Shown: in pieces, positions 18,239-31,988 of the stretch
How positions within the stretch are numbered: position 1 is the first letter of the stretch
Layout of the letters: every line of letters begins with the position of its first letter
From: Sutcliffiella horikoshii
GTDB taxonomy: Bacteria; Bacillota; Bacilli; Bacillales; Bacillaceae_I
DNA length: 64,000 nucleotides
Assembly (NCBI RefSeq): GCF_002157855.1
Contig: NZ_CP020880.1
Location: 4,154,001 to 4,218,000, forward strand
Direction: 5' to 3'
The notes under the pieces: model-generated
What the model saw: only the letters and a program-made list of their open reading frames with translations
The model's database searches: none
Told to the model about the DNA's origin: nothing
Position numbers and translations under genes: made by a program

Positions 18239-18442
18239 TTATATGGACATATCTCCTACAGCGAAAGAGCATCTTAATACTTCAGAGAGTTTATGTAAGG
18301 TAGATACCTGCACATCCAAGGTCCCAGCTTCTATTGCAGCAATGGTGTCTGCCGGCAGTCCTGTTAGCATGGCAAGTTGATCAATTTCTATTTCTTGTCT
18401 TGTTCTTGCATTCTTTAGTTGATTTCCGATATGTTTCACCAT
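18239..18442 (-). CDS. Small XRE-type helix-turn-helix protein
   Basis: 67 residues, essentially one Cro/C1 domain (IDQLAMLTGLPADTIAAIEAG at about residues 20-40). First gene of the unit continuing into the AraC/GyrI regulator about 90 bases downstream. A strong cre-like site lies just upstream. Confidence 0.75.
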   Translation of the reverse strand: MVKHIGNQLKNARTRQEIEIDQLAMLTGLPADTIAAIEAGTLDVQVSTLHKLSEVLRCSFAVGDMSI

Positions 18443-18465
18443 AATCCCCCTCCTGTTAACACGAT

Positions 18466-18479
18466 TGAAAACGCTTACA
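18466..18479. promoter_or_regulatory. cre-like CcpA site
   Basis: TGAAAACGCTTACA matches the Bacillus cre consensus (TGWAANCGNTNWCA) at every position. It lies 24 bases upstream of the small XRE gene and 40 bases past the BMC operon terminator, so it more likely acts on the regulator unit. Confidence 0.65.
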
Positions 18480-18519
18480 ACATATTATATAAAAATATTT
18501 AGAATTTTTCAATATTAAA

Positions 18520-18562
18520 ATAACAGGACACCGATGAACTTGCATCGAAAGCATCCTGTTAT
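18520..18562 (-). terminator. Terminator of the BMC operon
   Basis: ATAACAGGA pairs with TCCTGTTAT, with an inner CGATG/CATCG stem, just past the deoC stop; the minus strand then reads TTTTAAT. Confidence 0.8.
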
Positions 18563-18573
18563 CCAATCTAGTC

Positions 18574-19392
18574 TTAATATCCAGTCCCTTTTCCGCCTGT
18601 AACAATCGCAATTCCGGAGCTAGCACCGATTCTTGTAGCACCTGCCTGCACAAGCTTTCTTGCCGTATCCAGGTCACGTACACATGCAGACGCCTTAACA
18701 CCAATGTCAGGGCCGACTGCTTCGCGCATAAGCTTAATGTCCTCTGCTGTTGCACAGCCTGGTCCGAAGCCTGTAGAAGTTTTGACGAAATCCGCTCCGG
18801 CCATTTTTGCTAGAATGCATGCTTTTTTCTTTTCTTCTGTTTCCAAAAGACCTGTTTCGATGATGACTTTAACTGGTGCATGACCTTTAGCAGCAAGCAC
18901 GACCGCTTCGATGTCTTTTTTGACGGTTTCAAAGTCGCCGGATTTAAGGGCACCGATGTTCATGACCATGTCAATCTCCGTTGCTCCACTTGCAATCGCA
19001 TCACGTGTTTCAGAAACTTTTACAAAACTGTTGGTAGCACCAAGCGGGAAGCCGACTACCGTTGTAATACCCACATTGGAACCCTTCAGTTCTTGAGCAG
19101 CCGTGGACACCCAGAAAGGATTCACACATACTGTTGCAAAGTTATATTCTTTCGCCTCTTCACAAAGCTTGACGACCTGCTCTTTTGTGCTTTCCGGCTT
19201 TAGTAGCGTATGGTCGATCATTCTTGCAATAGAAGGTCCTGTGATCAGGTTGGATGAGGCATTTGTAAAAGAATTCCCGTTTGTTGAAGTAGTATTGGAA
19301 GCTGCAGGTTTTCCTTCTGCAAGCTGTTGTTTATTTGTCAGTTGTTCCATGATTTGATTCGTAATTTGTTCCACCAATGCTTCCATTTGCAT
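18574..19392 (-). CDS. deoC: BMC-associated deoxyribose-phosphate aldolase
   Basis: A 272-residue class I aldolase that cleaves 2-deoxyribose-5-phosphate to acetaldehyde and glyceraldehyde-3-phosphate. The Schiff-base lysine is Lys204 (KTSTGFGPG), with Asp141 (EIDMVMN) and Lys233 (GVKASA); the C-terminus ends in Tyr, as in E. coli DeoC. Residues 1-20 ([18 protein letters not shown]...) form an amphipathic helix, then a Ser/Thr/Asn linker to about 50, the layout of a BMC encapsulation peptide absent from ordinary DeoC. ATG at 19392 has GAGG eight bases upstream; a GTG three codons earlier is the alternative. Last gene of the BMC operon. Confidence 0.93.
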
Positions 19393-19407
19393 TGTGTTCA
19401 CCTCGCA

Positions 19408-19671
19408 TTAATTTAATCGGTCGACAATTCCGGCAATGACGGCATCAAAAGAACCTTTTGGATCTCCTAATATATCTCTTGCCGCTCCACCCTCTTCTAG
19501 TATGAGCACATAGTCGCCGGCTCCTGCGTGAAAGCGGTCGAAGGCTATCATGGCATCGCCGCACTCCTTGCCGCTCGCGTCCACTGGAATAACGACCATG
19601 AGCTTTTTGTTTTGATGACTTGGTGTTTTAATCGTCGAAACGACATTTCCAACGACTTTTGCTAGTTTCAT
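19408..19671 (-). CDS. BMC-P (EutN/CcmL) pentameric vertex protein
   Basis: An 87-residue EutN/CcmL-family protein ([17 protein letters not shown], then [18 protein letters not shown] and the C-terminal [11 protein letters not shown]). Pentamers cap the vertices of the icosahedral BMC shell. Its ATG overlaps the stop of the upstream BMC-H gene by four bases, so the two are translationally coupled. One of three BMC-P genes in this operon and the most divergent. Confidence 0.92.
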
Positions 19672-19943
19672 AGAGTGGTAGGAAGGATTTTTTCGATATC
19701 GGAATGTGGTCTTGGGATCACATGCACGGATAGGAATTCGCCAACACGTTGCGCTGCATCTGCCCCTGCTTCTGTTGCCGCTTTTACAGCTCCTACATCA
19801 CCGCGTACCATGACAGTGATTAATCCGCCGCCCACTTGAACTTTTCCTACTAACGATACGTTTGCTGCCTTCATCATAGCGTCTGCTGCTTCGATTGCCC
19901 CTACTAAACCTTTTGTTTCAATCATCCCTAATGCGTTGCTCAT
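19668..19943 (-). CDS. BMC-H hexameric shell protein (second copy)
   Basis: A 91-residue single Pfam00936-type shell protein with the hallmark N-terminus [20 protein letters not shown] and the [21 protein letters not shown] segment; the C-terminus carries [14 protein letters not shown]. Hexamers tile the shell facets and hold the central pore. It is very like the BMC-H encoded at 21555, so the pair is probably a duplication. It starts one base after the upstream BMC-P stop. Confidence 0.95.
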
Positions 19944-20228
19944 TTATATTTCCTCCATTCGTTTTACGTTGTAATAGTCAATGATTCCAAGTATTCCCGC
20001 GTCTGATGCGACAAGGTCTTTGTTCAATGGCAGAGAGGATTCCCTGCTTTTTGCAAGATAAACAAGGTCCCCTTCTCCTGATTGACCGATTGTGTCAATA
20101 GCAACAAGTGGTTTTCCTTTATCCTGCAACTGATCATCTACTGGTTGGACGATTAATAGCTTCAACCCCTTCAAGCTCTCGTCTTTATGGGTACAGATCA
20201 TGTTTCCAATCACTTTTGCTACGAACAT
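19944..20228 (-). CDS. BMC-P (EutN/CcmL) pentameric vertex protein
   Basis: 94 residues, EutN/CcmL family: MFVAKVIGNMICTHK at the N-terminus, the conserved LLIVQPVD strand, VAIDTIGQSGEGDLVYLAKS and a C-terminal GILGIIDYYNV. Forms shell vertices. Follows rpiB by 16 bases. Differs enough from the other two BMC-P proteins to suggest distinct vertex or partner roles. Confidence 0.92.
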   Translation of the reverse strand: MFVAKVIGNMICTHKDESLKGLKLLIVQPVDDQLQDKGKPLVAIDTIGQSGEGDLVYLAKSRESSLPLNKDLVASDAGILGIIDYYNVKRMEEI

Positions 20229-20244
20229 AGACTTAAACCTGCTT

Positions 20245-20700
20245 TCAGCGTTTAATAAAACGACTTTCGATTTCCATTACTTTGGTGACACGACGGTCAT
20301 GGCGGCCGCCAGCGAAATCAGTTTCCAGCCATTTTTTCACCAATTGCTTGGCAAGGCCTTCCCCGATGAATTGGCCACCGATGGATAAAACGTTCGCGTT
20401 ATTGTGCTCGCGGCTGTTAATGACAGAGGACAAGTCCCAACATACAGCTCCTCGGACACCCGGTATCTTATTCAATACCATTCCGCTCCCAACGCCTACT
20501 CCATCAATCATGATGCCAACGTAATCTGGATTAGTCGCGACGCATTCCCCAACAAGGAATGCAATATCCGGGTAATCCACTGATTCTTTCGCTTTGCAGC
20601 CAAAATCAAGGTATTCGTATCCTAGCTCCGTCAAGTAGCCTTTCAAAGCCTCTTTTAGCTCGTATCCACCATGGTCGCTACCGATTGCAACTTTTTTCAT
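20245..20700 (-). CDS. rpiB: RpiB/LacAB-family sugar-phosphate isomerase, Cys66 replaced
   Basis: A 151-residue RpiB-fold protein. Conserved features: SDHGGYELK at 8-16, SREHNNANVLSIGG with His99, and the C-terminal GGRHDRRV. In E. coli RpiB the catalytic base Cys66 lies in ICGTGIG; here position 66 is Asp in IDGVGVGSG, so the catalytic loop is remodelled. RpiB normally interconverts ribose-5- and ribulose-5-phosphate; a different sugar phosphate is possible here. No encapsulation helix is seen. It starts three bases after the TIM stop, with AAAGGAG upstream, in the middle of the BMC operon. Confidence 0.85.
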   Translation of the reverse strand: MKKVAIGSDHGGYELKEALKGYLTELGYEYLDFGCKAKESVDYPDIAFLVGECVATNPDYVGIMIDGVGVGSGMVLNKIPGVRGAVCWDLSSVINSREHNNANVLSIGGQFIGEGLAKQLVKKWLETDFAGGRHDRRVTKVMEIESRFIKR

Positions 20701-20703
20701 TTT

Positions 20704-21543
20704 CTACGCTCCTTTGGCAAATACAGCGATTATTTTCTGAAAAGAATCCACCTGCAAACTCGCACCGCCGACAAGTACTCCATCGATGTCCGTCATAGAA
20801 GCGAATTCTTGTGCATTGTTTTCATTTACAGATCCGCCATATAAAATGCTGACCTTCTCTGCGTTCTGTACGTCCAAGTATTCAAGCACAGAGCGGATAT
20901 ATCCGTGAATACGCTGAGCTTCCGCCGCTGTTGCTGATTCCCCGGTTCCGATTGCCCAAACCGGCTCGTATGCGAATACGACCTGCGACACATCCATTCC
21001 ATCCATGGCGCCGAGTATTTGCTTGGTCAGCACCTTTTCTGTTTGGTCCTGTTGCTTTTGTTCCAATGTTTCCCCAATGCAGATGACAGGGGTCAGGCCC
21101 CTTTTTAAGGCTTGTTTTGCTTTTTGATTCACGGTTGCATCATCTTCTTGTGCATATTGCCTTCTTTCAGAGTGTCCGATGATGCAGTGGGAGCAACCGA
21201 TCTCCTTTAACAGGCTTGCTGCCGTTTCCCCTGTGTAGGCGCCTTTATCTTCTTGGTGAACATTTTGGGCACCAATTTGTATCTCTTTCTTTTGTCCTTG
21301 TACGTAAAGCTTGGCGGGATACAGGAGTGGGGCTGGCGGACAAACCACCACTTCAACTCCGTTTCCTTCTTTAAGCTGTTGTAAAAATTCCAGTGTTTCC
21401 TGGATGTTCTTGTTCATTTTCCAATTGGCGATGACGTATTGTTTCCTGCCGGTACCTGGTGGCAAGTTGTTCAAGGAACTCGCGGATTGCTCTATTGCCT
21501 CTTGTACAAGTTGTTTGATATAGGCTTTTATGGATTGATCCAT
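20704..21543 (-). CDS. tpiA: BMC-targeted triosephosphate isomerase
   Basis: A 279-residue TIM, about 30 residues longer than usual at the N-terminus. Catalytic residues are Lys42 (NWKMN), His124 (GHSERR) and Glu193 (AYEPVWAIGTG); the phosphate-binding YGGSVN is present. Residues 1-22 (MDQSIKAYIKQLVQEAIEQS...) form an amphipathic helix followed by a Pro/Gly linker, typical of an encapsulation peptide. This suggests that glyceraldehyde-3-phosphate from DeoC is converted to DHAP inside the shell. The household copy is presumably elsewhere in the glycolytic operon. Confidence 0.92.
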   Translation of the reverse strand: MDQSIKAYIKQLVQEAIEQSASSLNNLPPGTGRKQYVIANWKMNKNIQETLEFLQQLKEGNGVEVVVCPPAPLLYPAKLYVQGQKKEIQIGAQNVHQEDKGAYTGETAASLLKEIGCSHCIIGHSERRQYAQEDDATVNQKAKQALKRGLTPVICIGETLEQKQQDQTEKVLTKQILGAMDGMDVSQVVFAYEPVWAIGTGESATAAEAQRIHGYIRSVLEYLDVQNAEKVSILYGGSVNENNAQEFASMTDIDGVLVGGASLQVDSFQKIIAVFAKGA

Positions 21544-21554
21544 CCTACTCTACC

Positions 21555-21944
21555 TTATTTCGCTGCCGGTAGAATTCCGTTTACTTCGGAGTTTGGACGT
21601 GGGATGACGTGTACAGATACTAAGTTTCCAACTCTTCCTGCTGCATCCGCGCCAGCTTCTGTTGCCGCTTTTACAGCTCCTACATCACCGCGTACCATTA
21701 CTGCTACAAGTCCGCCACCTACGAATTCTTTTCCTACAAGTGTTACGTTCGCTGCTTTAACCATTGCGTCTGCCGCTTCAATTGCCCCGATTAGACCTTT
21801 TGTTTCAATCATTCCTAATGCTTCTTGACTCATTTGAATTCCTCCTAATGGTTGTTTAATAGTTTTGGATTTTGTTTGCTTTTTTGCTTTTTTAGGTGGT
21901 TCTACAGGCTGTCCCTCTTGAGGTAGTTCATTCAGTTCTGCCAT
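21555..21944 (-). CDS. BMC-H hexameric shell protein with optional N-terminal extension
   Basis: The shell domain starts at ATG 21833 ([20 protein letters not shown]), which has AGGAGG seven bases upstream and yields 92 residues. The frame is open upstream to ATG 21944, which has GGAGGGGG seven bases upstream and would add 37 residues rich in Pro, Lys and Gln ([12 protein letters not shown]...). Both starts look functional, so two products are likely. The shell domain contains the standard [21 protein letters not shown] and [14 protein letters not shown] segments. Major shell-facet protein, between the aldehyde dehydrogenase and TIM genes. Confidence 0.93.
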
Positions 21945-21958
21945 TTTTCATCCCCCTC

Positions 21959-23392
21959 CTAAATAATTCTGAAGCCGTCTACCAGCACACAACGTCTTTG
22001 GCGGGTGAAGGTTTTGGCTGAAGTCAGCCCTTCTCCCGTCGGACCTGCGATGGTAAGGGTGGTAAACCCTTCGCTCTGATAGCCAAGACCTGCAACAGAC
22101 GGACCGTTTTTCACAAAAATGGTCGCTTGGATTTCTTTTGCCATCTTTGTCAGGTTGGTGACATTCTGAGAATGCATGATGGCAGTGTGGCGGTTGCCTT
22201 TTTCAGCTTTGACTGCCAGGCTGATTGCTTTATCCACATCTGACACTCTAACTATTGGCAGGATTGGCATCAGCATTTCTGTGTGCACCAGTGGGTGATC
22301 TTCCTTTGTTTCAGCAATGATGAGTTTGGCGTTTGCATCAGCTCTGATGCCTGCCGCTTCGAGCAGGACCGATGCGTCCTTTCCGATAAAATCGCGGTTC
22401 GGATAGTATTTCTCGCCTTTTTTAACTAAAATCTTCCCCAGAAGCTTTTCCAGCTGGTAACCTTTCAACTCGACGGCTCCATTTTTGGCCATCTCGCTTT
22501 TTAAGCTGTTTGCTACTTTTTCGACCACGAACACTTCTTTTTCCGCGGTACAAAGTACATTGTTATCAAAGCTTGCGCCGGTTACGATGTCTTTGGCAGC
22601 CTTGGAGATAATGGCTGTTTCATCCACGACCACCGGTGGGTTTCCAGGGCCAGCGGCGATTACTTTTTTTCCGGCACTCATTGCCGCCTGTACCACGATG
22701 CCGCCGCCAGTGACGACTAAAGCTCTTACTTTCGGGTGCTTCATCACTTCGTTAGAAGTTTCTATGTTTGGACTGGCAACGGAAGTGAGGGTGTTGGCTG
22801 GTCCTCCTGCAGCTACAATCGCCTCGTTCAATAGCTGCATCGTTTTAATAGATACTTGTTTAGCACTTGGGTGTGGGTTAAAAACAACCGCATTTCCTGC
22901 CGCAACTAGAGAAATAGAGTTATTGATGATAGTTGCTGCCGGGTTCGTGGATGGGGTGATGGCTCCATACACGCCAACCGGTGAGTATTCCACAAGGGTC
23001 AGACCCCCGTCCCCGGAATAGGTGGTGGCAACAATGTCCTCCACTCCAGGTGTTTTATCAGCAGCCAAGAGGTTCTTCGCCACCTTGTCTTCCACCCGAC
23101 CAAGTCCTGTTTCTTTTACTGCGAGTTCTGCCAGTGATTTTGCTTGCTCACGGCTTACTTCCCGCATTTTTTCTATCATGTTCTTTCTTGTTTCAAGTGA
23201 AGTTGCCCTCAGCTTGTCCCATGCCTCTGTTGCAGCATCTGCTGCTTCGTCAACGGTTGCAAACACACCATTTCCTAGCGGTATCTCGCTGTTTCCCTGT
23301 TCTAAAGCAGATGTGGGGTGCTTACTTTCATTTCCAAGCTGGGCAAGGACTTGCGCAACCATTTCCTTTATATCGCTTTCCTTAATTTGCAC
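21959..23392 (-). CDS. BMC CoA-acylating aldehyde dehydrogenase (EutE/PduP type)
   Basis: About 477 residues. Oxidises acetaldehyde with NAD+ and CoA to acetyl-CoA. The nucleophilic cysteine is about Cys281 in NNVLCTAEKE; TPSTNPAAT and VVTGGG are conserved nucleotide/CoA-site segments. The N-terminal amphipathic helix MQIKESDIKEMVAQVLAQL and the following linker match PduP/EutE encapsulation peptides. GTG at 23392 has AAGGAGG nine bases upstream; the TTG at 23398 is too close to that site. Consumes the acetaldehyde made by DeoC, the toxic volatile intermediate that the shell would retain. Confidence 0.93.
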   Translation of the reverse strand: MQIKESDIKEMVAQVLAQLGNESKHPTSALEQGNSEIPLGNGVFATVDEAADAATEAWDKLRATSLETRKNMIEKMREVSREQAKSLAELAVKETGLGRVEDKVAKNLLAADKTPGVEDIVATTYSGDGGLTLVEYSPVGVYGAITPSTNPAATIINNSISLVAAGNAVVFNPHPSAKQVSIKTMQLLNEAIVAAGGPANTLTSVASPNIETSNEVMKHPKVRALVVTGGGIVVQAAMSAGKKVIAAGPGNPPVVVDETAIISKAAKDIVTGASFDNNVLCTAEKEVFVVEKVANSLKSEMAKNGAVELKGYQLEKLLGKILVKKGEKYYPNRDFIGKDASVLLEAAGIRADANAKLIIAETKEDHPLVHTEMLMPILPIVRVSDVDKAISLAVKAEKGNRHTAIMHSQNVTNLTKMAKEIQATIFVKNGPSVAGLGYQSEGFTTLTIAGPTGEGLTSAKTFTRQRRCVLVDGFRII

Positions 23393-23394
23393 AA

Positions 23395-23694
23395 TCAATT
23401 ACCTCCTTTTGAAAAGGTGAGGGTGCCGTTTAGCTCGATTTGGTCAACGATTCCCACGATGGCGGCGTCGACCGGTACCCCGTTCGTAATTTCTGTCTGT
23501 CTCGCAGAACTTCCGCTAACGATTAATACCACTTCACCCACGCCAGAGCCAACGGTGTCGATGGCAACAATGGGCTTGCCGTCTTCTTCGATGTTTTTCA
23601 TGTCTAGCGGGGTGACGATTAGCAGCTTTTTCCCTTTGAGTTTTTCCGCTTTGGTGGTGGCGACGATGGATCCTGTCACTTTTGCAATAATCAT
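23395..23694 (-). CDS. BMC-P (EutN/CcmL) pentameric vertex protein
   Basis: 99 residues, EutN/CcmL family: MIIAKVTGSIVATTKAEKLKG, LLIVTPLDMKN, VAIDTVGSGVGEVVLIVSGSSA and PVDAAIVGIVDQIEL. Resembles the EutN/PduN branch most closely of the three vertex proteins here. It is the first shell gene of the operon, about 250 bases after the flavoprotein gene; that gap holds hairpin repeat copy B. A ribosome site precedes the ATG. Confidence 0.92.
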   Translation of the reverse strand: MIIAKVTGSIVATTKAEKLKGKKLLIVTPLDMKNIEEDGKPIVAIDTVGSGVGEVVLIVSGSSARQTEITNGVPVDAAIVGIVDQIELNGTLTFSKGGN

Positions 23695-23766
23695 GAGTTC
23701 GTTGCCTCCTTTCTAGGAGCATGATGTTTTTGGTTTGGTTAATGTTAACCGTTCCTTTTCGCTGCA

Positions 23767-23935
23767 GGCACTCGCTTTCCGCGGGGCGACCTTGAGCCTC
23801 CTCACTTCGTTGCGGGGTCTCAACATTGTCGCTACTCCCCCGCAGGACAAGGAAGGCTTCGGCAGCGAAACATCGCACGAAGAAAATGCGTAGCATTTTC
23901 GAGGAGTCGAGTGCCTTCCGCTCCAATCCACTAGG
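23767..23935. repeat. Dispersed long-hairpin repeat, copy B
   Basis: Inner arms GGCACTCG (23767-23774) and CGAGTGCC (23908-23915) are complementary; the core is nearly identical to copy A, and the tail CTCCAATCCACTA matches copy C. An extra hairpin GAAAATGC/GCATTTTC is inserted at 23882-23900. It sits inside the BMC operon between flavoprotein and shell genes and would be part of the mRNA. Confidence 0.8.
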
Positions 23936-23945
23936 CTCTTCATAC

Positions 23946-24671
23946 CTATGTTTCTTTTTGTATCTCAATCTTCATTTCTCTGGCCATGTCTTTGGCGACG
24001 GGGGTGATTTTGCTTTCTTTTGGAACGGTGATGGTTTTTACGTTTTCTCTTGCTGCATGTTCAATGTGTTTTGCCATGATAAGTGGTTGTTTATCTTTAT
24101 ACTGTTGATGCTGTTCTTTGGCTGTCCGTAAAAGTTGCTTTAACGGGACCCACTTCACTTGGTCTTTTTGGGTGGTGCGCAAGTAACTTTGCAATTTTTC
24201 CTGAACAGAATGTGGTGCAAGGATCTGTTGGTATACCCCAAGCTCGACTTCGTTGTGGGCAATGACGATTGGCTTGCCTAACAACTGAAATTGGATCGCT
24301 GTGTAAGACGTTCGATCATCATCCACCATCAATGCAAGCTTTGATACTAATTGAAAAGAGGCAACCGGCAAGATAAGCAGGTCTGTGAAATTCCAAAGCT
24401 TCTCTAATTGTCGGTAGTCTGCTTGGTCCAAAGACAAAACATCCTGCTCCCCTTTAAGCAGTTCCTCCCACTCCTTTGAAGCTACTAATTGCACTTGGAA
24501 GGACTGCTTGATTTCCGTAACCGCTTTCAAAATAAGTTCTGGATTACTGGAGAAATAATTTAAAAGAACGGTGATGGTCGGTTTTTCCTGACTGTTTCCC
24601 TGCTCGGACATGTAAGTTTCGACCGCCTGCCTGACAAGCTCCTTAACCTTTTCCTTTACATCCACAGCCAC
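23946..24671 (-). CDS. BMC-associated flavoprotein-like protein
   Basis: About 241 residues. An N-terminal amphipathic helix (VDVKEKVKELVRQAVETYM) looks like an encapsulation peptide. The body resembles the flavin-binding flavoprotein fold (LLILPVASFQLVSKLALMVDD, GKPIVIAHNEVELG). The C-terminus (TITVPKESKITPVAKDMAREM) has a 'VP-ITP-AKD-A-E' tail seen in several BMC proteins. Its reaction is unknown; it is the only candidate redox partner in the operon for recycling NADH. GTG at 24671 lies within the end of the pduL gene (29-base overlap); a second GTG two codons later is equally well placed. Confidence 0.65.
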   Translation of the reverse strand: MAVDVKEKVKELVRQAVETYMSEQGNSQEKPTITVLLNYFSSNPELILKAVTEIKQSFQVQLVASKEWEELLKGEQDVLSLDQADYRQLEKLWNFTDLLILPVASFQLVSKLALMVDDDRTSYTAIQFQLLGKPIVIAHNEVELGVYQQILAPHSVQEKLQSYLRTTQKDQVKWVPLKQLLRTAKEQHQQYKDKQPLIMAKHIEHAARENVKTITVPKESKITPVAKDMAREMKIEIQKET

Positions 24672-25332
24672 AACCTCCCTCCGTATCTGGAGAACACTTT
24701 ATGGCAGTGATTTCGCCATGCTGGCCATTCTTTATGTTGGCCGCATTCGCCTCATCGAGATCGATATGCATTTCCAGCCTGTATGTTGGAGAGATTCGAA
24801 TAAGAACATTGGTGTAAGTGACGCCTCTGGGACCATCGACTTTTATATCCACCATGTCTCCGTCTTTCACGCGAAAATTTTCTCCGTCATCTGGATGCAT
24901 GTGGATATGACGGGAGGCACAAATCAATCCTTCGTCCAACTTCAGTTGACCTCTTGGACCCATGAGAATGATAGATTCTGACCCCTCTAACTCTCCAGAC
25001 TGACGAATCGGCGGCGTAACGCCTAATGTAAACCCGTCAAAAAGAGAGATTTCCACTTGCGTTTTGCCTCGTGCCGGGCCCAAAACCCGTACATTAGGGA
25101 TCCTCCCTTTTGGACCGATTAGTGTGACCGTTTCTTTTGCGGCAAACTGGTCAGGCTGAGAAAGGTCCTTTAGCTTTTTCAGCTCATAGCCCCGCCCGAA
25201 CAGCCGCTCCACATGCTCGGGAGACAAGTGGACATGCCTGTTGGATACAGCAATCGGGACCTGTTTTTTGGCTGTTTGCATCGTGTTTTGAACCACCTCT
25301 TGCACCAGTGCCTTTATGGTTGCTCGATCCAT
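24643..25332 (-). CDS. pduL: BMC phosphate propanoyltransferase (PduL type)
   Basis: A 229-residue zinc-dependent phosphotransacylase that converts acetyl-CoA plus phosphate to acetyl-phosphate and free CoA, recycling CoA in the lumen. Two tandem PduL domains with zinc-binding NRHVHLS (31-37) and ASRHIHMHPDD. Residues 1-22 (MDRATIKALVQEVVQNTMQT) are the family's encapsulation helix. The C-terminus is unusual, ending GGCGCGCKGKG. ATG at 25332 has GGGGGAGGG eight bases upstream, four bases after the deoR stop. Confidence 0.92.
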   Translation of the reverse strand: MDRATIKALVQEVVQNTMQTAKKQVPIAVSNRHVHLSPEHVERLFGRGYELKKLKDLSQPDQFAAKETVTLIGPKGRIPNVRVLGPARGKTQVEISLFDGFTLGVTPPIRQSGELEGSESIILMGPRGQLKLDEGLICASRHIHMHPDDGENFRVKDGDMVDIKVDGPRGVTYTNVLIRISPTYRLEMHIDLDEANAANIKNGQHGEITAIKCSPDTEGGCGCGCKGKG

Positions 25333-25336
25333 AATT

Positions 25337-26287
25337 TTAACCCTCCCCCATTTCCAACAAAGCTTTTGCCGTATATTGATCGGTGATGAGGACATTGGCA
25401 TACTTACCGTTCAGTGCCCCCATGATTCCTTCTACCTTTTTGTTTCCGCCTGCAACGAGAATGCTATATTCCTTTTCTGCAAGGTGTGTAAGCTCAACGC
25501 CTATTGTTCGTTCATTTAATGATTGATTGCTTATGTGTCCGTTTATATCGATGAACCGTGAGCAAATATCTGCGACTGTTTCGTTTTTCTTTAACGTCTC
25601 CACATCGCTGTCTAAAAAGTAACCTGCTCTCATCAAAGTGGATTGTTCTCCAGCTTCCCCTACTGTATAGACAGCGATATTGGCCTTTTTACCAAGCTCT
25701 AGAACCTTGTTAATATGGCGGTCAGCCACAATTGCCTGCTTTACGACTGGATGATCGACAACTGCCGGGACAGGGAGGAAATGTGGTGTAGTATGGAAAG
25801 CCGTTGCCAGTCCATTAATAATGTCAGCGGCATGCGTATTTAACTCCGAATAACTGACGCCACCATTCAATTGCACGATTTTCACATCATGCACACTTTT
25901 AGGATTGAGCTGCTGAGACAATTGATAGAGTGTCGTACCCCAAGTAATACCGATCGTATCGCCCGTTTTAACGATGCCATATAAATACTCGGCTGCTGCC
26001 TCCCCAACTTTTTGCTTAATATGACTATCTTCATACGCAGGGACGGAGGCAACCACACAATCTTTCAACCTAAATCTTTCTATTAGTTGAGAAGCCAGCC
26101 CATTCACATCTTCTGTTGGATCACAAATCTTGATATGTACAACTCCGTCCTGTTTGGCTTGATCTAAAAGCCGCGATACAGTAGGGCGTGAGACGCCAAG
26201 CGTTTTGGCAATCTCCTGTTGGCTATAATTAAAGAGGTAATACATTTTAGCCACTTCTACTAAACGGGCTATCTTTTCATTTTGCAT
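25337..26287 (-). CDS. deoR: DeoR (SorC family) deoxyribonucleoside regulator
   Basis: A 316-residue SorC-family repressor: helix-turn-helix at about residues 19-42 (YSQQEIAKTLGVSRPTVSRLL), then a sugar-phosphate-binding domain (GDTIGITWGTTLYQLSQQL, VQLNGGVS, and AVVDHPVVKQAIV). In B. subtilis the homologous DeoR represses deoC-nupC-pdp and is released by deoxyribose-5-phosphate, the substrate of the DeoC encoded at the end of this operon. It is the first gene, so it is probably autoregulated; a matching operator lies 17-34 bases upstream of its start. Confidence 0.88.
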   Translation of the reverse strand: MQNEKIARLVEVAKMYYLFNYSQQEIAKTLGVSRPTVSRLLDQAKQDGVVHIKICDPTEDVNGLASQLIERFRLKDCVVASVPAYEDSHIKQKVGEAAAEYLYGIVKTGDTIGITWGTTLYQLSQQLNPKSVHDVKIVQLNGGVSYSELNTHAADIINGLATAFHTTPHFLPVPAVVDHPVVKQAIVADRHINKVLELGKKANIAVYTVGEAGEQSTLMRAGYFLDSDVETLKKNETVADICSRFIDINGHISNQSLNERTIGVELTHLAEKEYSILVAGGNKKVEGIMGALNGKYANVLITDQYTAKALLEMGEG

Positions 26288-26303
26288 ACTCGTTTCACCC
26301 GAT

Positions 26304-26321
26304 TTTCAAATTATGTTCATT
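26304..26321 (-). promoter_or_regulatory. Candidate DeoR operator, BMC operon
   Basis: Minus strand AATGAACATAATTTGAAA. It matches 14 of 18 positions of the B. subtilis DeoR palindrome as I remember it (ATTGAACAAAATTTCAAT). Position between promoter and deoR start suits repression. The remembered consensus needs checking. Confidence 0.6.
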
Positions 26322-26420
26322 GAAGTTATACAAAATTGCTTAGAATCATGAAGAATCTTGTAGAATGATAGAGTTATTCTAGGAAATCCGGCACTGTAGT
26401 GAACACTTGTAAACTCACCT

Positions 26421-26435
26421 TTGAACATATGTTAA
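26421..26435. promoter_or_regulatory. Second TGAACATA palindrome upstream of deoR
   Basis: TTGAACATATGTTAA contains the perfect 10-base palindrome AACATATGTT and the TGAACATA core seen in the other candidate DeoR sites. It lies about 115 bases from the first site, a spacing that could allow DNA looping. Apart from this, the other operator and a cre-like site, nothing else is seen in 26288-26524. Confidence 0.4.
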
Positions 26436-26493
26436 TTTAATTATAAACCTAGTAAAAATTCTGTCAATATATTTTATTTTAAATAGTCAGATA

Positions 26494-26507
26494 TGTAAGC
26501 GTTTAAT
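26494..26507. promoter_or_regulatory. Imperfect cre-like site
   Basis: TGTAAGCGTTTAAT matches the cre consensus except at the last two positions. Upstream of the deoR-BMC operon, where carbon catabolite control would be expected. Confidence 0.4.
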
Positions 26508-26524
26508 ATTTTAAGTAACAAAAA

Positions 26525-26552
26525 ACACGCCCTCTATAAAAAGAGAGCGTGT
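26525..26552 (-). terminator. Terminator of nucleoside transporter operon
   Basis: ACACGCCCTCT pairs with AGAGAGCGTGT (one mismatch), followed on the minus strand by six T residues. It separates the importer from the deoR-BMC operon. Confidence 0.88.
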
Positions 26553-26562
26553 CTTGAAAATT

Positions 26563-27513
26563 TTATCGTTTTCCAGAATCAAATGGTTCTCCTACCGCTT
26601 TTGGAGCTTGAGAGGATTTAGAGAACACGATTAACGCAATTAACGTTACAACGTATGGGAATACCTTCAAGAATACTGGCGGAATGACAGCTAAAGAAGG
26701 AATTACCTGTGAAACGTTCGCAACCGTAGTAGCAAAACCAAAGAACAGAGTTGCCGCCAGAATTCCAAGCGGTTTCCACTGCCCGAAGATTAAGGAAGCA
26801 AGTGCCAAGAAACCAAGTCCAGCTACTGTTCCGTTAAATTCTCCTCCAGTTGTTACGATGAAGACCGCACCACCCAGACCTGAGAACGCTCCGGAGATCA
26901 TAACGCCGATATAACGCATTTTACTTACGCTGATTCCTGCTGCTTCTGCTGCATGTGGATGCTCACCACATGAACGAAGGCGCAGTCCGAAAGGTGTTTT
27001 ATAGAGCATGAATGCACTTACTAGCAAAATAGCTAGAACAAGCCATGTTGTTGCATACGTTCTAGTGAATAGCAAACTACCTATCACTGGAATATCCGAT
27101 AAGAAAGGAACATTAAAAGGTTTTAATGTGCTGATTTGGATGTTTCCGCTACCTGTAATATTACGTGCCAAGAACACCGTGATAGCTGCAGCAATCATAT
27201 TGATGGCTGTACCACTGATGATCTGGTTGGCATGAAGGTTAATACTTGCAAACGCATGAAGAAGGGAGAACAATAATCCCATCAAAGTAGCAAGTGCCAG
27301 ACCGATCCAGATTGCTTTTTGTTGGCCAGGCATCATTTCCTGCATGTTCAAAATGACAAGCGCTCCAGTAAATGCCCCAATGACCATTAATCCTTCTAAA
27401 CCAATGTTAACAACTCCACTTCGCTCACTGAATAAAGCTCCTAGCGCTGTGATCAAAAGAGGGATAGTGAAGATGATTGCGTACGGTGCTATTTGTTGAA
27501 TCACTGTCCACAT
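26563..27513 (-). CDS. nupQ: Nucleoside ABC transporter permease (NupQ type)
   Basis: A 316-residue membrane protein of the BmpA-linked nucleoside importer family (YufQ/NupQ). About eight hydrophobic segments; characteristic segments include SGVVNIGLEGLMVIGAF near residue 32 and GVMISGAFSGLGGAVFI. With NupP it forms the membrane channel for guanosine-type nucleosides. Encoded four bases after NupP and ended by a clear terminator. Lies directly upstream of the deoR-BMC operon, suggesting a supply of deoxyribonucleosides. Confidence 0.87.
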   Translation of the reverse strand: MWTVIQQIAPYAIIFTIPLLITALGALFSERSGVVNIGLEGLMVIGAFTGALVILNMQEMMPGQQKAIWIGLALATLMGLLFSLLHAFASINLHANQIISGTAINMIAAAITVFLARNITGSGNIQISTLKPFNVPFLSDIPVIGSLLFTRTYATTWLVLAILLVSAFMLYKTPFGLRLRSCGEHPHAAEAAGISVSKMRYIGVMISGAFSGLGGAVFIVTTGGEFNGTVAGLGFLALASLIFGQWKPLGILAATLFFGFATTVANVSQVIPSLAVIPPVFLKVFPYVVTLIALIVFSKSSQAPKAVGEPFDSGKR

Positions 27514-27516
27514 ACC

Positions 27517-28602
27517 TTATACCTCCTCCTTCTTTTGAGCATTGTTTTGAGTTGCTACCGGTTGTCTATTTTTCTTTTTATTAATAAAGAAACGAATCAT
27601 GCGATCTATTAAGATGCTTGTTGCTGCGAAATAGATAATGATTGCAATGATAGAATCTGCTATTTCAGGTGGAATCTCTGTCATCGCGTTCATAAATCCG
27701 CGACCGGAATAAAGAAGACCGAAGAAAATAGCTGCTAACAATACCCCGATACCTGTGTTTGCACCTAAAAGTGCTACCGCAATTCCATCAAAACCTTGGG
27801 TAGGTAAAATACCGATTTGGATACTTGTCGCATTTCCTGCATAGAATGCCACTCCCCCAAGACCAGCCAAACCACCGGCAATAACCATGGAAGTAACGAT
27901 ACTTCTGTTTACTGCAATACCGGCATATTCCGCTGAATCACGGTTAAATCCAACCGCCTTCAACTCATAACCAAGCGTAGTTTTATTGATGATAAAAGAG
28001 AAGATGATCACTGCAATCGCAGCAATAAATAAACCAAGGTTAATATAAGAGCCATCAAACATTTCTGTTAAAATTGGTGTTCGTAACGATGCGGATTCTG
28101 GTAGTTTTTTAGATTCTGTTTCCAAAAACTCGCCCTTAAAGTAGGCAGGAACCGCATAATATACCGTCCAGTAGGCAATCCAGTTCATCATGATCGTTGA
28201 TACTACTTCATGTACGTTGAACTTTGCCTTCAAAAGACCAGGGATAAAAGCCCAAAGTGCTCCCCCGATAAAACCTGCCACGACCATCATTACTAACAGT
28301 ACTGGTCTGGACAAATCAAAAGTCAGTCCGACCGCAACAGCACAAAAACCACCAAAGAGCATTTGTCCTGCCGCTCCGATATTAAACAAGCCGGTACGGA
28401 AAGCAAATGCTACCGATAGACCAGTGAAAATAAGCGGTGTCGCTGTTGCAAGCGTGTTTCCGATTCTCGAAAGATTCTTTAATCCGCCTTCAAATAAATA
28501 TTTATATCCTTCCACAGGATTGTTTCCTGTGACTGCCATCAATATCGCACCTGCAATCAAACCGAAAAGGACAGCAAGCAACGAGATTATGCCATTTCTC
28601 AT
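27517..28602 (-). CDS. nupP: Nucleoside ABC transporter permease (NupP type)
   Basis: A 361-residue permease with about nine hydrophobic segments and a basic C-terminal tail (INKKKNRQP). Family marks are GLFNIGAAGQMLFGGF near residue 72 and MVIAGGLAGLGGVAFYAG. Its start overlaps the end of the ATPase gene by four bases (ATGA). Partner of NupQ in the inner-membrane complex. Confidence 0.87.
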   Translation of the reverse strand: MRNGIISLLAVLFGLIAGAILMAVTGNNPVEGYKYLFEGGLKNLSRIGNTLATATPLIFTGLSVAFAFRTGLFNIGAAGQMLFGGFCAVAVGLTFDLSRPVLLVMMVVAGFIGGALWAFIPGLLKAKFNVHEVVSTIMMNWIAYWTVYYAVPAYFKGEFLETESKKLPESASLRTPILTEMFDGSYINLGLFIAAIAVIIFSFIINKTTLGYELKAVGFNRDSAEYAGIAVNRSIVTSMVIAGGLAGLGGVAFYAGNATSIQIGILPTQGFDGIAVALLGANTGIGVLLAAIFFGLLYSGRGFMNAMTEIPPEIADSIIAIIIYFAATSILIDRMIRFFINKKKNRQPVATQNNAQKKEEV

Positions 28603-30122
28603 TCTTCTTCCCCCTTCATCACGCCTGCCATCATCAGACCAAGTTCGTTCTCGTTTGTTTCCTTTGCATTCACGATTCCAACTAGTTGGCCATTATTCAC
28701 AACAGCGATGCGATCTGAAACATTCAATACCTCATCTAGTTCCAAGGACACTAGCAAAACAGCTTTCCCTTTGTCTCGTTGTTCCACAAGTCTTTTGTGG
28801 ATGTATTCGATCGAACCAACATCAAGTCCACGCGTCGGCTGAACAGCAATAAGCAGAGTCGGATCTAATTCGATCTCCCGCCCGATTACCGCCTTTTGCT
28901 GGTTACCGCCTGAAAGGGACCTGGCAATGGACTTACCGCCTTCACCAGAACGGACATCAAAGTTTTTAATAATATTATCTGCATGTTTTTTAATCGCAGC
29001 AAAATTAAGGACGCCACGTTTGGAGTATGGCTCTTTATGGTACAATTCTAAAACCATATTTTCTTCAATTGTATAATCTAAAACTAGTCCATGCTTGTGA
29101 CGGTCTTCCGGAATATGAGCGATCCCGCTTGCGATTCTAGAACGAACCGGCATTTTGGTGATGTCTTTTCCTTCAAAAAGAATGGTTCCGGAGTCCGCTT
29201 GCTTCAAGCCAGTAATGCTTTCCACTATTTCTGCCTGACCATTACCGTCTACCCCTGCTATTCCTAGAATTTCGCCTTTTTTCAGTTCTAAAGACAGGTT
29301 TTTAAGGGCTACCACATCTTTGCCCTTCTTTACTGAAACATTGTCCATTTTTAATACAACGTCGCTTGGAGTAGCTTCTGTTTTGTCGACTTTAAAGTTG
29401 ACTTCACGTCCAACCATCATTTCAGCCATTTGTTCTTTGGACGTTTCCGCCACATTTACCGTGCCAATTGTCTTTCCTCTTCTGATAACTGTACACCTGT
29501 CCGCCATCGCCTTAATTTCTTTCAGTTTGTGCGTGATAATAATAATGGATTTACCTTCTGCGATAAGGTTCTTCATAATCTTACCCAGTTCCTCAATTTC
29601 CTGAGGAGTAAGAACCGCAGTAGGCTCGTCCAAAATAAGTACGTCAGCCTGACGATAAAGCATCTTCAGAATTTCAACACGCTGTTGCATGCCAACGGAA
29701 ATGTCTTCAATTTTGGCATGTGGATCCACATTCAAGCCATATTTTTTAGACAAATCTTCAATTCTTTTGCTGGCTGTTTTCTTATCAAGCACATACATTT
29801 TATGCAATTCGGAACCAAGCATAATGTTCTCTGTTACCGTAAAATTACTGACCAGCTTGAAGTGTTGGTGGACCATCCCGATACCGAGTTTTGTCGCGAC
29901 ATTAGGGTTGGCAATTTTCATTTCCTTGCCATTTATTTTTATAGATCCTCTATCCGGTTGATACATACCGAACAAAATAGCCATCAGCGTTGATTTCCCG
30001 GCACCATTTTCTCCAAGAAGGGCGTGAATTTCCCCTTGCTTCAGACGAAGTGTAATATCATCATTGGCAACTATTCCAGTAAATTCTTTCCGGATATTGA
30101 GCATCTCCACTACATAGTCCAT
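28599..30122 (-). CDS. nupO: Nucleoside ABC transporter tandem ATPase (NupO type)
   Basis: A 507-residue protein with two ABC modules, as in ribose/nucleoside importers. Module 1: Walker A GENGAGKSTL (about 37-46), signature ISVGMQQRVEI and Walker B LILDEPTAVL. Module 2 has a degenerate Walker A (GVDGNGQAEI) and signature LSGGNQQKAVIGRE. The ATG follows GGGAG at nine bases. About 370 bases separate it from nupN, holding a terminator-like hairpin and repeat copy C, so it may be expressed at lower level than the binding lipoprotein. Confidence 0.9.
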   Translation of the reverse strand: MDYVVEMLNIRKEFTGIVANDDITLRLKQGEIHALLGENGAGKSTLMAILFGMYQPDRGSIKINGKEMKIANPNVATKLGIGMVHQHFKLVSNFTVTENIMLGSELHKMYVLDKKTASKRIEDLSKKYGLNVDPHAKIEDISVGMQQRVEILKMLYRQADVLILDEPTAVLTPQEIEELGKIMKNLIAEGKSIIIITHKLKEIKAMADRCTVIRRGKTIGTVNVAETSKEQMAEMMVGREVNFKVDKTEATPSDVVLKMDNVSVKKGKDVVALKNLSLELKKGEILGIAGVDGNGQAEIVESITGLKQADSGTILFEGKDITKMPVRSRIASGIAHIPEDRHKHGLVLDYTIEENMVLELYHKEPYSKRGVLNFAAIKKHADNIIKNFDVRSGEGGKSIARSLSGGNQQKAVIGREIELDPTLLIAVQPTRGLDVGSIEYIHKRLVEQRDKGKAVLLVSLELDEVLNVSDRIAVVNNGQLVGIVNAKETNENELGLMMAGVMKGEEE

Positions 30123-30201
30123 AGAGTGATTCTCCCTTTTTTGTTTTTGGTTTTTTCACAAAGGTTACCGTTTATAAGTTGTCCCGTTTCTTTTCGTAGC
30201 A

Positions 30202-30315
30202 GCCACTTGCTTTCCTCGGGGAGGGCCGAGAGCCTCCTCGGCTTTGCCTGCGGGGTCTCTCGTTTCCCTCTATCTCCCGCAGGAGTCAAGTGGCTTCCAC
30301 TCCAATCCACTAATT
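30202..30315. repeat. Dispersed long-hairpin repeat, copy C
   Basis: Arms GCCACTTG (30202-30209) and CAAGTGGC (30287-30294) are complementary; the core has CTTTCCTCGGGG, GAGAGCCTCCTCGG, GCGGGGTCTCTC and CTCCCGCAGGAGTC, then CTCCAATCCACTA as in copy B. It lies between nupN and nupO and is more diverged than A and B are from each other. Confidence 0.8.
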
Positions 30316-30403
30316 CCAAAAACTCCATAAACTCCAATAACTTTGCCAAAACAGTTTATTTATCCCAAGAGGACAGACAACTAACCTCTTACATTTGCAT
30401 TAA

Positions 30404-30427
30404 AAAAGGCGGGTCACCCCGCCTTTT
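30404..30427 (-). terminator. Terminator or attenuator after nupN
   Basis: AAAAGGCGGG pairs with CCCGCCTTTT around a 4-base loop, with six T residues on the minus strand. It follows the binding-lipoprotein gene but precedes nupOPQ; partial readthrough would give excess binding protein. Confidence 0.85.
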
Positions 30428-30490
30428 CTTTATCAATCTGAATCTAGCAAACGAATTTGCTCTAGATGATTACGCTAGGTAATGCACGTA

Positions 30491-31597
30491 TTACTTGATC
30501 AAATCGCCTTGCTCAGCAGATACTTCTACTTCACCGGATTTGATTAGTTCAAAGATCTCATCAACTTTAGTAGTTGTTTCATCACTTAAGTTTGGATTTT
30601 CTTCAGGAAGTCCAATACCATCGTTTTTCGCATCAAATGTAAGAGTTTCGCCACCTGGGAACTCTCCATCGATTTCTGCTTTGATCATATCAGCTGCAGC
30701 TGTGTCGATTTTCTTCATTGCAGAAGTTAAGACTACAGAATCACCGCTATCCATTTTTCCTTCTTCGTATTGGTCAACGTCTACACCGACCATCCATACA
30801 TCGTCTCCGCCTTCAACCCGAGTTTTCGCTTCGTTGATTGCCCCAACGCCAACTCCACCCGCTGCTGCGAAGATTACATTTACACCACGGTCAAACATTG
30901 CTCCAGCAATTTGCTGACCTGCAGCTACATCGTCAAATGTACCTTGGTACACGACGTTTTCTTCTTTAATGCTTACATTTGTATCTAAGTTTTCGTTAGC
31001 ATACGCAATACCTTGTTGGAAGCCCCAGTTGAACTTTTGAACTGGAGGAATTTCCATACCACCGATGAATCCAGCTTCGCCTTCTTTTAACTCAAGAGCC
31101 GTAGCAACACCAGCTAAGAATCCAGCTTCGTGCTCTGCGAAGAAGATAGATACTGTATTTTCACCCACTACTGGGTTGAAATCGCCATTATGTGGAGATC
31201 CGTCGATTAGGACGAACTTTGCATCTTCATATTGACTTTGTGCTTGGAAAACCGCTGTTTCAAATTTAAATCCAGGAGTAACAATAAATTTAAATTCTGC
31301 ATCATATAAGTTTGTAATTTCTTGCATGTAGTCAGCTTCTGTAGTACCTGCCGGCTTTAAGTATTTCTCTTTAATGCCGAAGTCTTCTTTTGCTTGAAGA
31401 ATCCCATTCCAAGTTCCTTCGTTAAAAGATTTGTCATCGATTGTCCCAGCATCTGTAACCATTCCGACCATTAAGTCAGAACCGCTGCCATCGCCAGAAG
31501 CAGTGTCAGAACTACCATTGTTGTCCGTACCGCAACCTACTAAAAAGATCATCGTGGTTAAAACAGTGATGATCGTTGCAATTAAACCCTTTTTCAT
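30491..31597 (-). CDS. nupN: Nucleoside-binding BMP-family lipoprotein (NupN type)
   Basis: A 368-residue basic-membrane-protein/Med-family lipoprotein. Signal peptide and lipobox VGC (Cys22), acidic Ser/Gly linker, then MVGMVTDAGTIDDKSFNEGTW, the family hallmark near residues 43-63, plus GFKFETAVFQAQ and IFAAAGGVGVGAI. Captures nucleosides outside the cell for NupOPQ. ATG follows GGGGGAG. A SigA-type promoter and a candidate DeoR operator lie upstream, linking it to the BMC regulon. Confidence 0.88.
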   Translation of the reverse strand: MKKGLIATIITVLTTMIFLVGCGTDNNGSSDTASGDGSGSDLMVGMVTDAGTIDDKSFNEGTWNGILQAKEDFGIKEKYLKPAGTTEADYMQEITNLYDAEFKFIVTPGFKFETAVFQAQSQYEDAKFVLIDGSPHNGDFNPVVGENTVSIFFAEHEAGFLAGVATALELKEGEAGFIGGMEIPPVQKFNWGFQQGIAYANENLDTNVSIKEENVVYQGTFDDVAAGQQIAGAMFDRGVNVIFAAAGGVGVGAINEAKTRVEGGDDVWMVGVDVDQYEEGKMDSGDSVVLTSAMKKIDTAAADMIKAEIDGEFPGGETLTFDAKNDGIGLPEENPNLSDETTTKVDEIFELIKSGEVEVSAEQGDLIK

Positions 31598-31654
31598 GCC
31601 TTAACTCCCCCAAAATTATAAATTTATAGTAAATTGAAAACCCTTACTATCATT

Positions 31655-31683
31655 ACTATATTCGTAAACTTCCAATATTTCAA
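31655..31683 (-). promoter_or_regulatory. SigA-type promoter of nupN
   Basis: Minus strand TTGAAA (31678-31683), 17-base spacer, TATAGT (31655-31660). Two mismatches in total to the consensus; predicted start near 31648. Confidence 0.7.
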
Positions 31684-31698
31684 TATATGTTTTTCAAA

Positions 31699-31716
31699 GA
31701 TGAACATATTTTCATG
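31699..31716 (+). promoter_or_regulatory. Candidate DeoR operator upstream of nupN
   Basis: GATGAACATATTTTCATG shares the TGAACATA-A/T-TTT core with the site before deoR and lies about 51-68 bases upstream of the predicted nupN transcription start. The rest of the gene-free stretch 31598-31988 holds the nupN promoter, a small hairpin at 31802-31826 (AAAGGGG/CCCCTTT) and the rluF leader. Confidence 0.55.
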
Positions 31717-31988
31717 AATAAAAATACCTAGATAAGAAAATTGTCGAAAATTTGCAGATAAATACTAGGTTTCTAGCATTTTCAATGGTAGAAATTACAT
31801 AAAAGGGGTCTGGCCCGCTCCCCTTTAAAGCGCTAAAGACGCATAAAACCTCCACGCATTTATCTGGTTGCCCGTGCATTTGTAAGCGGTCCTTTGTTTA
31901 TTGTATGATAGGGTACATAGACAGAAACTTTCCTCTCCTCTTCCTATATAAGAGTGAGTTCATTTTTCATATAAGGACGTGTACTAGA

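Follow-up and report, generated by a model that had tools for sequence, protein, structure and literature searches.

Which sugar phosphate is broken down in the bacterial microcompartment (BMC) encoded by Sutcliffiella horikoshii, and what does the RpiB-family protein contribute to it? The genes lie on the minus strand at 18574-26287 of a 64,000-nucleotide stretch, here called the window (contig NZ_CP020880.1, positions 4,154,001 to 4,218,000), and form an operon with the full gene set of the sugar phosphate utilizing (SPU) class. We conclude that the locus is very probably a DeoR-controlled SPU microcompartment for deoxyribose 5-phosphate (dR5P). Judging by its residues, the RpiB-family protein is quite probably not a standard ribose 5-phosphate (R5P) isomerase, and we think it likely that both statements hold together. 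What the protein does instead is proposed tentatively: it may open the dR5P ring for the aldolase DeoC. A sequence-only reading of the window had listed this protein without assigning it a role; to us it is the most interesting part of the locus.

The gene calls for 18574-31597 were re-read by open reading frame (ORF) listing and profile scans, and every gene named in the sequence-only reading was found where it had been placed. On the minus strand the order of transcription is nupN, nupO, nupP, nupQ, deoR, pduL, a TIGR02536-like gene, BMC-P1, the aldehyde dehydrogenase gene, BMC-H1, the triosephosphate isomerase gene, the RpiB-family gene, BMC-P2, BMC-H2, BMC-P3 and deoC. The operon from deoR onward comprises the following features, with RpiB residue numbers given here and below as E. 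coli positions.

25337..26287, minus strand: deoR, SorC-family repressor of the B. subtilis DeoR type (NF053881 equivalog 439.7 bits, cut-off 420)
24643..25332, minus strand: pduL, phosphotransacylase (NF011652 270 bits, cut-off 209; the internal ATG start is our reading, the listed ORF running to 25401)
23946..24671, minus strand: flavoprotein-fold protein, TIGR02536-like, with an N-terminal helix (TIGR02536 4e-11 and PF02441 0.0023, both below cut-off)
23395..23694, minus strand: BMC-P shell vertex protein 1 (PF03319)
21959..23398, minus strand: CoA-acylating aldehyde dehydrogenase (ALDH), BMC type (NF011927 665.7 bits, cut-off 403)
21555..21944, minus strand: BMC-H shell protein 1, N-terminal extension of up to ~40 residues, start codon uncertain (PF00936)
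20704..21543, minus strand: triosephosphate isomerase (TIM), N-terminal extension of ~35 residues (PF00121 300.5 bits from residue 36)
20245..20700, minus strand: RpiB-family protein, Cys66 to Asp and Thr68 to Val, proposed ring-opening enzyme (PF02502 167.4 bits; TIGR01120 below cut-off)
19944..20228, minus strand: BMC-P shell vertex protein 2 (PF03319)
19668..19943, minus strand: BMC-H shell protein 2 (PF00936; EutM model 134.5, cut-off 133)
19408..19671, minus strand: BMC-P shell vertex protein 3 (PF03319)
18574..19401, minus strand: deoC, deoxyribose-phosphate aldolase, N-terminal extension of ~50 residues (TIGR00126 272.6 bits, cut-off 117.3)

Axen 2014 (PMC4207490) used DeoC, RpiB and ALDH to define SPU loci, noted PduL in most of them and TIM in one, and proposed that they degrade deoxyribose phosphate. 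The later catalogue (Sutter 2021, PMC8217296) ranks SPU among the most prevalent predicted microcompartments, with over 280 members spread across 26 phyla; pfam01791 and pfam02502 are common to all seven subtypes, and the pfam02502 enzyme is read there as an RpiB type that isomerises R5P. The DNA-catabolism prediction is repeated in PMC8156839. At the present locus we found a PF01791 (DeoC-type) aldolase, a PF02502 protein, BMC shell genes and a BMC-type acylating ALDH. The dR5P compartment suggested in the sequence-only reading is supported and equals the published SPU prediction. Searches of open-access PMC papers turned up no biochemistry of the class. Its count of two BMC-H and three BMC-P proteins also holds: a genome profile scan (E <= 0.001) gave two PF00936 and three PF03319 matches, all at this locus, and detected no BMC-T protein. 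The predicted shell is built from hexamers and pentamers encoded by five genes.

ALDH relatives (E <= 1e-100) occur in 31 of 397 genomes of the order, and the shell is present in 13 of the 18 genomes of the family. The same operon is found in seven genomes beyond the family, with ALDH identities of 68-74% (G106, G337, G041, G050, G048, G084 and G143; G and L numbers are our handles for genomes and loci). Since the identical gene order recurs in other genera, the locus is not a chance assembly. ORF picking hides small overlapping genes, such as some shell genes of L159, L160 and L162, and the absences that matter were re-checked by tblastn.

Two elements lie upstream of deoR.

26440..26467, minus strand: sigma-A-like promoter of the shell operon, TTGACA-16-TATAAT (12/12 consensus match)
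26421..26435, minus strand: DeoR operator right-half-like site, directly past the -10 box (14/15 identical to the B. subtilis operator)

Promoter and terminator calls throughout are consensus matches only. The effector of B. subtilis DeoR is dR5P, as given in the part of PMC11229326 from which the operator sequence was taken, and the repressor of the locus passes the equivalog model for this type. The right-half site is the best match on both strands of the whole window, the next best being 13/15 at 16549; when the intergenic region was shuffled 1000 times, no shuffle gave as good a match. Close to the start codon is a left-half-like site (14/18), matched by 39 of 1000 shuffles and equalled in score at three other places in the window. 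Among the Sutcliffiella loci the operator core is kept in 10 of 10, with one base changed in L009, and the -35 and -10 hexamers are conserved in all ten. A close DeoR homologue (73-100% identity) is present in 13/13 shell-bearing and 0/5 shell-less genomes of the family, the shell-less G004 having a 30% homologue. Control of the shell operon by DeoR is a well-supported prediction, and this repressor with its operator clarifies the substrate more than the neighbouring importer does.

The RpiB-family protein is where the locus departs from its published description. As described in PMC4783025, a Cys of RpiB takes the C2 proton, a Thr shifts a proton from O2 to O1, and His102 (E. coli 99) protonates the ring oxygen; the C69S and C69A mutants are inactive. 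The protein of the locus shares 46-47% identity with the housekeeping RpiB of the same genome and aligns over its full length to solved RpiBs (best match 3he8), yet it has Asp at the catalytic Cys66 and Val at Thr68 and keeps the ring-opening His99. It passes the broader subfamily models NF004051 and TIGR00689 but fails the rpiB equivalog TIGR01120 (135.0 vs a cut-off of 138.65). Because both residues of C1-C2 isomerisation are replaced while His99 is retained, the protein is unlikely to be an ordinary isomerase.

We surveyed 101 distinct sequences from loci L003-L036 and L127-L253 and the window, dropping hits of fewer than 115 profile positions and merging identical sequences. A sequence was called linked if a shell gene or deoC lay no more than 6 kb away; 29 were linked through a shell gene and L218 through deoC alone. 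All 30 linked sequences have Asp66 together with Ala, Val or Ile at position 68, and 70 of the 71 others have Cys66, the exception being LacA. This sample is not random, many of the unlinked sequences being best hits of profiles built from linked ones. A PF02502 scan of the 18 family genomes does not share this bias; it gave Asp in 11 of 11 linked and Cys in 19 of 19 unlinked sequences (30 fetched of 32 matches). Each of the 13 shell-bearing genomes has two or three PF02502 copies, and a canonical copy is present in each of the 18, so that the shell RpiB, like the shell DeoC, is an extra paralogue alongside a free copy. Sixteen viral-contig loci were all unlinked, with Cys66; 674 plasmid records matched, all below 60% identity, with residues tallied for the lacAB of one only.

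Ten residues (D9, H10, D42, D66, S72, H99, N100, R133, H134 and R137) are invariant in 14 diverse linked members down to 50% identity. The nonsynonymous divergence (dN) of the RpiB-family protein is the lowest of the operon enzymes in 10/10 comparisons, which argues that it is not decaying. With LacA and LacB in the tree, the linked Asp66 group takes two changes, and LacA attaches to it on a very long branch; a tree built without the motif columns and without L173 (two rows), L242, L244 and L225 takes one (SH-aLRT 71). A single origin of the group is likely, though weakly supported. We also considered TIM and the RpiB-family protein as tetrose isomerases of the EryH/EryI type and rejected this: the D-erythrulose-4-phosphate isomerase model scored 70.6 against a cut-off of 240, and the EryI-like gene in G009 retains CGTG and has Ser for His99. 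The G009 locus L170 holds, by eye, TIM-like, CGTG-type RpiB-like, kinase-like, transketolase-like and transaldolase-like genes, perhaps for a tetrose or tetritol pathway.

What might such a protein do in a dR5P compartment? Aldose-ketose isomerisation requires a C2 hydroxyl, and as dR5P has none it cannot be isomerised in that way; DeoC requires the open aldehyde. dR5P is 99.8% furanose (PMC5975929). As the likeliest single role we therefore propose, tentatively, that the enzyme binds the dR5P furanose, opens the ring and hands the product on to DeoC; Asp66, close to O1, and His99, close to the ring oxygen, would serve as its acid-base pair. In L014 the two proteins are fused. Extended across the SPU class, and just as tentatively, the "RpiB" could be a new catalytic type, a dR5P ring-opening enzyme with an Asp66/His99 pair that feeds DeoC open-chain aldehyde within the shell. 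Experiments described in PMC8141875 showed that YhcH opens sialic acid for its aldolase NanA, and the authors expect further cases. If the proposal is true, the SPU protein would be a second case of an enzyme opening a sugar for an aldolase, by way of an unrelated protein.

Gene set, operator and residue changes, with their complete link to shell or deoC in our sample, are read from the sequence; the fluxes, the encapsulation and the ring opening we infer. Deoxynucleosides would enter via the Nup importer or otherwise, and Pdp- and PunA-like enzymes with DeoB, encoded in a distant gene cluster, would make dR5P in the cytosol. In the same genome deoB lies at G000:C1:2578131-2579273, between xerD-, punA- and pdp-like genes (neighbours assigned by eye). 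The dR5P would release DeoR and pass into the shell by the BMC-H pores, where DeoC would split it into acetaldehyde and glyceraldehyde 3-phosphate. ALDH would convert acetaldehyde to acetyl-CoA, PduL would form acetyl phosphate and free CoA, and TIM would turn the triose into dihydroxyacetone phosphate. The ALDH has FDNNVLC, and NWKMN, GHSERR and AYEPVWAIGTG are intact in TIM; PduL has its conserved segments and DeoC its Schiff-base lysine segment.

The flavoprotein-fold protein may help to reoxidise NADH; with neither alcohol dehydrogenase nor PduS encoded in the operon, it is the sole redox candidate here. Its earlier naming as a flavoprotein fares unevenly, the PF02441 score (18 bits) falling under the cut-off of 22.7 while the predicted fold backs the name. 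An AlphaFold model (pLDDT 75.1, pTM 0.69) matched EpiD, UbiX and DmrB-type flavoproteins in Foldseek, best EpiD at E 4.9e-5, which supports a flavoprotein-type fold for 23946-24671. In the L204 and L205 loci, DeoC carries an N-terminal domain that resembles this protein (hhalign E 9e-5 and 7e-5; probability 59 and 63%). Long N-terminal domains on DeoC were also seen in L208 and L209.

The shell deoC is a second copy, with an open frame of 277 residues against 229 for the free copy at G000:C1:2955599. Two copies of deoC occur in the 13 shell-bearing genomes and one in the shell-less G002, G004, G008 and G012; the shell-less G003, an 80% complete genome, gave no deoC match. L162 and L163 each have another deoC-like gene, located a few kilobases upstream of deoR. 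PduL, the flavoprotein-fold protein, ALDH, TIM and DeoC all bear N-terminal extensions, which look like encapsulation peptides.

Several observations weigh against the compartment pathway or against ring opening. The encapsulation-helix test is clear only for the flavoprotein-fold protein and DeoC, for which 23 and 68 of 2000 shuffles were as amphipathic, and the scores are weak elsewhere (PduL 301, ALDH 455, TIM 484). TIM, present in L157-L164, gave no tblastn match in L011, L014 and L204-L209 and is therefore accessory or optional. The linked sequences all come from Bacillota except L014 (phylum unknown), the only one available from beyond that phylum. Where other RpiBs have Arg, the Bacillales linked members have Gln110 and L014 has Gly (L175, L178, L180, L185 and L202 keep Arg); this residue would replace the Arg that we take as equivalent to the phosphate-binding Arg113 of the M. 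tuberculosis enzyme. The R5P ring opens at 40-100 per second and dR5P opening is not expected to limit DeoC, according to the part of PMC5975929 that concerns these sugars, so that a ring-opening enzyme might gain little. A possible answer is that opening may compete with escape in a small leaky shell packed with aldolase. Finally, tblastn over the 17.6-21.4 kb fetched found no RpiB match in four Lachnospiraceae- or Dorea-type loci that have shell, ALDH, TIM and DeoC (L013, L015, L016 and L023), whereas the catalogue gives pfam02502 as common to all SPU subtypes (PMC8217296). The protein is therefore not needed everywhere or is encoded elsewhere, and on this account we lowered our confidence in ring opening slightly, to its present tentative level.

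Asp66 could also be an isomerisation base, like Glu75 of the M. tuberculosis enzyme. The RpiB-family protein would then be an active isomerase working on R5P or another sugar phosphate, and the compartment would also take ribose or other sugars. We consider this doubtful. Glu75 does stand in for Cys as the base in M. tuberculosis RpiB (PMC4783025, PMC3755991), some RpiBs are described as having low substrate specificity (PMC4207490), and ribonucleosides might also enter by the nucleoside importer. Glu75 is, however, differently numbered and so, on our reading, differently placed, and the position of the proton-moving Thr68 is hydrophobic in every linked sequence. The canonical copy that each family genome already has also speaks against it, and DeoC and its products require no such isomerase.

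Alternatively, the protein could be catalytically inert and assist DeoC or the shell as a cargo adaptor, an allosteric subunit or a binding partner. It evolves very slowly, is fused to DeoC in L014, has no N-terminal extension of its own and is missing from some DeoC shell loci, all of which would suit such a role. The ring-opening residue and most substrate-binding residues nevertheless stay the same in members as far apart as 50% identity, a constraint not expected of an inert scaffold, and we regard this explanation as unlikely.

The remaining alternatives to an independent SPU operon for dR5P with a ring-opening enzyme concern the importer and the published annotation. The neighbouring features are these.

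26563..31597, minus strand: nupQ, nupP, nupO and nupN, BMP-type ABC importer, a neighbouring separate unit (NupN PF02608 Bmp, NupO PF00005 ABC ATPase, NupP and NupQ PF02653)
26522..26555, minus strand: terminator-like hairpin between nupQ and deoR (14-pair stem)

The BMP binding protein, ATPase and two permeases stand in the order of NupNOPQ, and the closest solved relative of NupN is 2fqw, the membrane lipoprotein tmpC (E 2e-62). The sequence-only reading coupled the compartment to the importer and held that this linkage makes the substrate much clearer; on this view importer and shell evolved and act as one dedicated import-plus-degradation module. The two adjoin in 10/10 Sutcliffiella loci with enough flank (the window, L003-L010 and L166) and, by coordinates, in G009 and G016, and the binding protein is of the BMP type. 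NupN, however, is present in 18 of 18 family genomes and the shell in 13, five having the importer without the shell, and no nupN match was found by tblastn near the shell in 8/8 loci of other genera (L011, L157-L163; L161 extends only 2.8 kb past deoR). In G001, of another genus of the family, the importer lies ~5 kb from deoC, beyond an rluF gene. The araC-type and membrane genes found beside deoC in the window come immediately after nupQ in the shell-less G012 and G008. These empty sites fit either gain or loss of the shell operon, and the comparison shows which neighbours belong to the shell module.

Within the window the terminator-like site and the 12/12 promoter match both lie between nupQ and deoR, so the earlier call of one operon fits deoR to deoC, and the importer is apparently a separate unit. 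A similar hairpin follows nupQ in the shell-less L272 and L273 (by eye); terminator-like sites in the region number 15 against 13.2 expected. The importer appears to adjoin the module without belonging to it, and a dedicated joint module is quite improbable. Since NupN is wider than the shell, is absent beside it in other genera and adjoins empty sites, the substrate argument based on the importer is weakened.

The region ahead of nupN (window 31598-31904) has two conserved elements: the palindrome ATATGTTCATCTTTGAAAAACATAT, which lies shortly before the -35 box of that gene, and a TTTTCGACA stretch that is perhaps CodY-like. Shared DeoR control of importer and shell was considered and rejected, the best match of the palindrome to the B. 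subtilis right half being 11/15, reached in 293 of 1000 shuffles. The palindrome is not evidence for DeoR control because G012 has it without a shell or a close DeoR. Importer linkage in the Dorea-type L013, L015 and L023 was likewise rejected, their NupO-like ATPase being only 35-37% identical and not counted as nup; in L023 it lies near kinase-like and dehydrogenase-like genes (by eye).

That this is an ordinary SPU compartment with an ordinary RpiB, as Pfam and NCBIfam subfamily matches and the R5P isomerisation assigned to pfam02502 in PMC8217296 would have it, is very improbable, as both isomerisation residues are replaced in every linked member seen, the score falls under the rpiB equivalog cut-off, and the Cys mutants of other RpiBs noted above were reported inactive (PMC4783025). 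The published function of this SPU signature enzyme, R5P isomerisation, is by its residues probably wrong. The SPU class and its proposed DNA-sugar role were already in print in 2014 and 2021; added here are an importer that lies outside the module, the operon's own promoter and DeoR operator half, and a non-canonical compartment RpiB. Conserved residues argue against the reaction that the catalogue assigns to one of the two enzymes shared by all SPU loci. The residue change, present in every linked sequence seen, makes the pathway testable with one purified protein, and the named strains (Sutcliffiella, Neobacillus), simple five-gene shell and known repressor type offer a practical model.

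Some further observations concern the surroundings of the operon and its relatives. The 250-bp gap within the operon (23695-23945) contains a repeat-like stretch with the core GCGGAAAGCGAGTGCCTG, of which the genome has 10 exact copies and 5 with one mismatch; the L166 operon is without this gap. Downstream of deoC (window 18273-18573) are a promoter-like site (11/12) and then a short helix-turn-helix-like reading frame. Two Sutcliffiella genomes have a second microcompartment locus of another type, L171 (G016) and L037 (G011), one gene of L171 being EutB-like by eye. Four loci with an Asp66 RpiB and DeoC from Bacillota outside the class of the window (L206, L234, L207 and L235) have FGGY or PfkB kinase genes (one kinase of L206 and one of L207 by Pfam, the rest by eye), and L206, L234 and L207 have sugar ABC importer genes too (by eye); this suggests other entry routes into the same pathway.

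Compared with the SPU loci of Axen 2014 and Sutter 2021, the present one shares the DeoC aldolase, PF02502 protein, acylating ALDH, PduL, shell genes and proposed DNA-sugar catabolism, as well as TIM, noted in the published set for one Atribacteria locus. It differs in that only BMC-H and BMC-P were detected, in its DeoR with operator, and in the replaced isomerisation centre of its PF02502 protein. Six SPU loci from Bacillota outside the class of the window (L204-L209) have PduS-like genes, and some have longer shell proteins that we took for BMC-T, both assigned by eye. The unassigned SPU-like Firmicute locus described in the BMC Caller paper of 2022 (PMC9052549) has the SPU signature enzymes and, as here, a BMC-H with an N-terminal extension; it is a metagenome case with mixed shell types, and the likeness is one of published description.

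The SPU protein shares with canonical Bacillota RpiB the family, 46-56% identity, the ring-opening His and most binding residues, and differs by Cys66 to Asp and Thr68 to Val, Ala or Ile. Like LacA (L173) it has Asp at the Cys position and keeps the ring-opening His. LacA works only with LacB: isomerisation by the pair requires Cys65 of LacB, and His96 of LacA is important for opening the ring (PMC3755991). The SPU operon, in contrast, has no LacB-like gene, and its protein itself supplies D9 and H10, which in LacAB come from LacB. YhcH and NanA offer the working analogy, a cyclic sugar opened for an aldolase (PMC8141875); YhcH is a DUF386 metalloprotein whose function is known by experiment, whereas that of the SPU protein is proposed from sequence alone.

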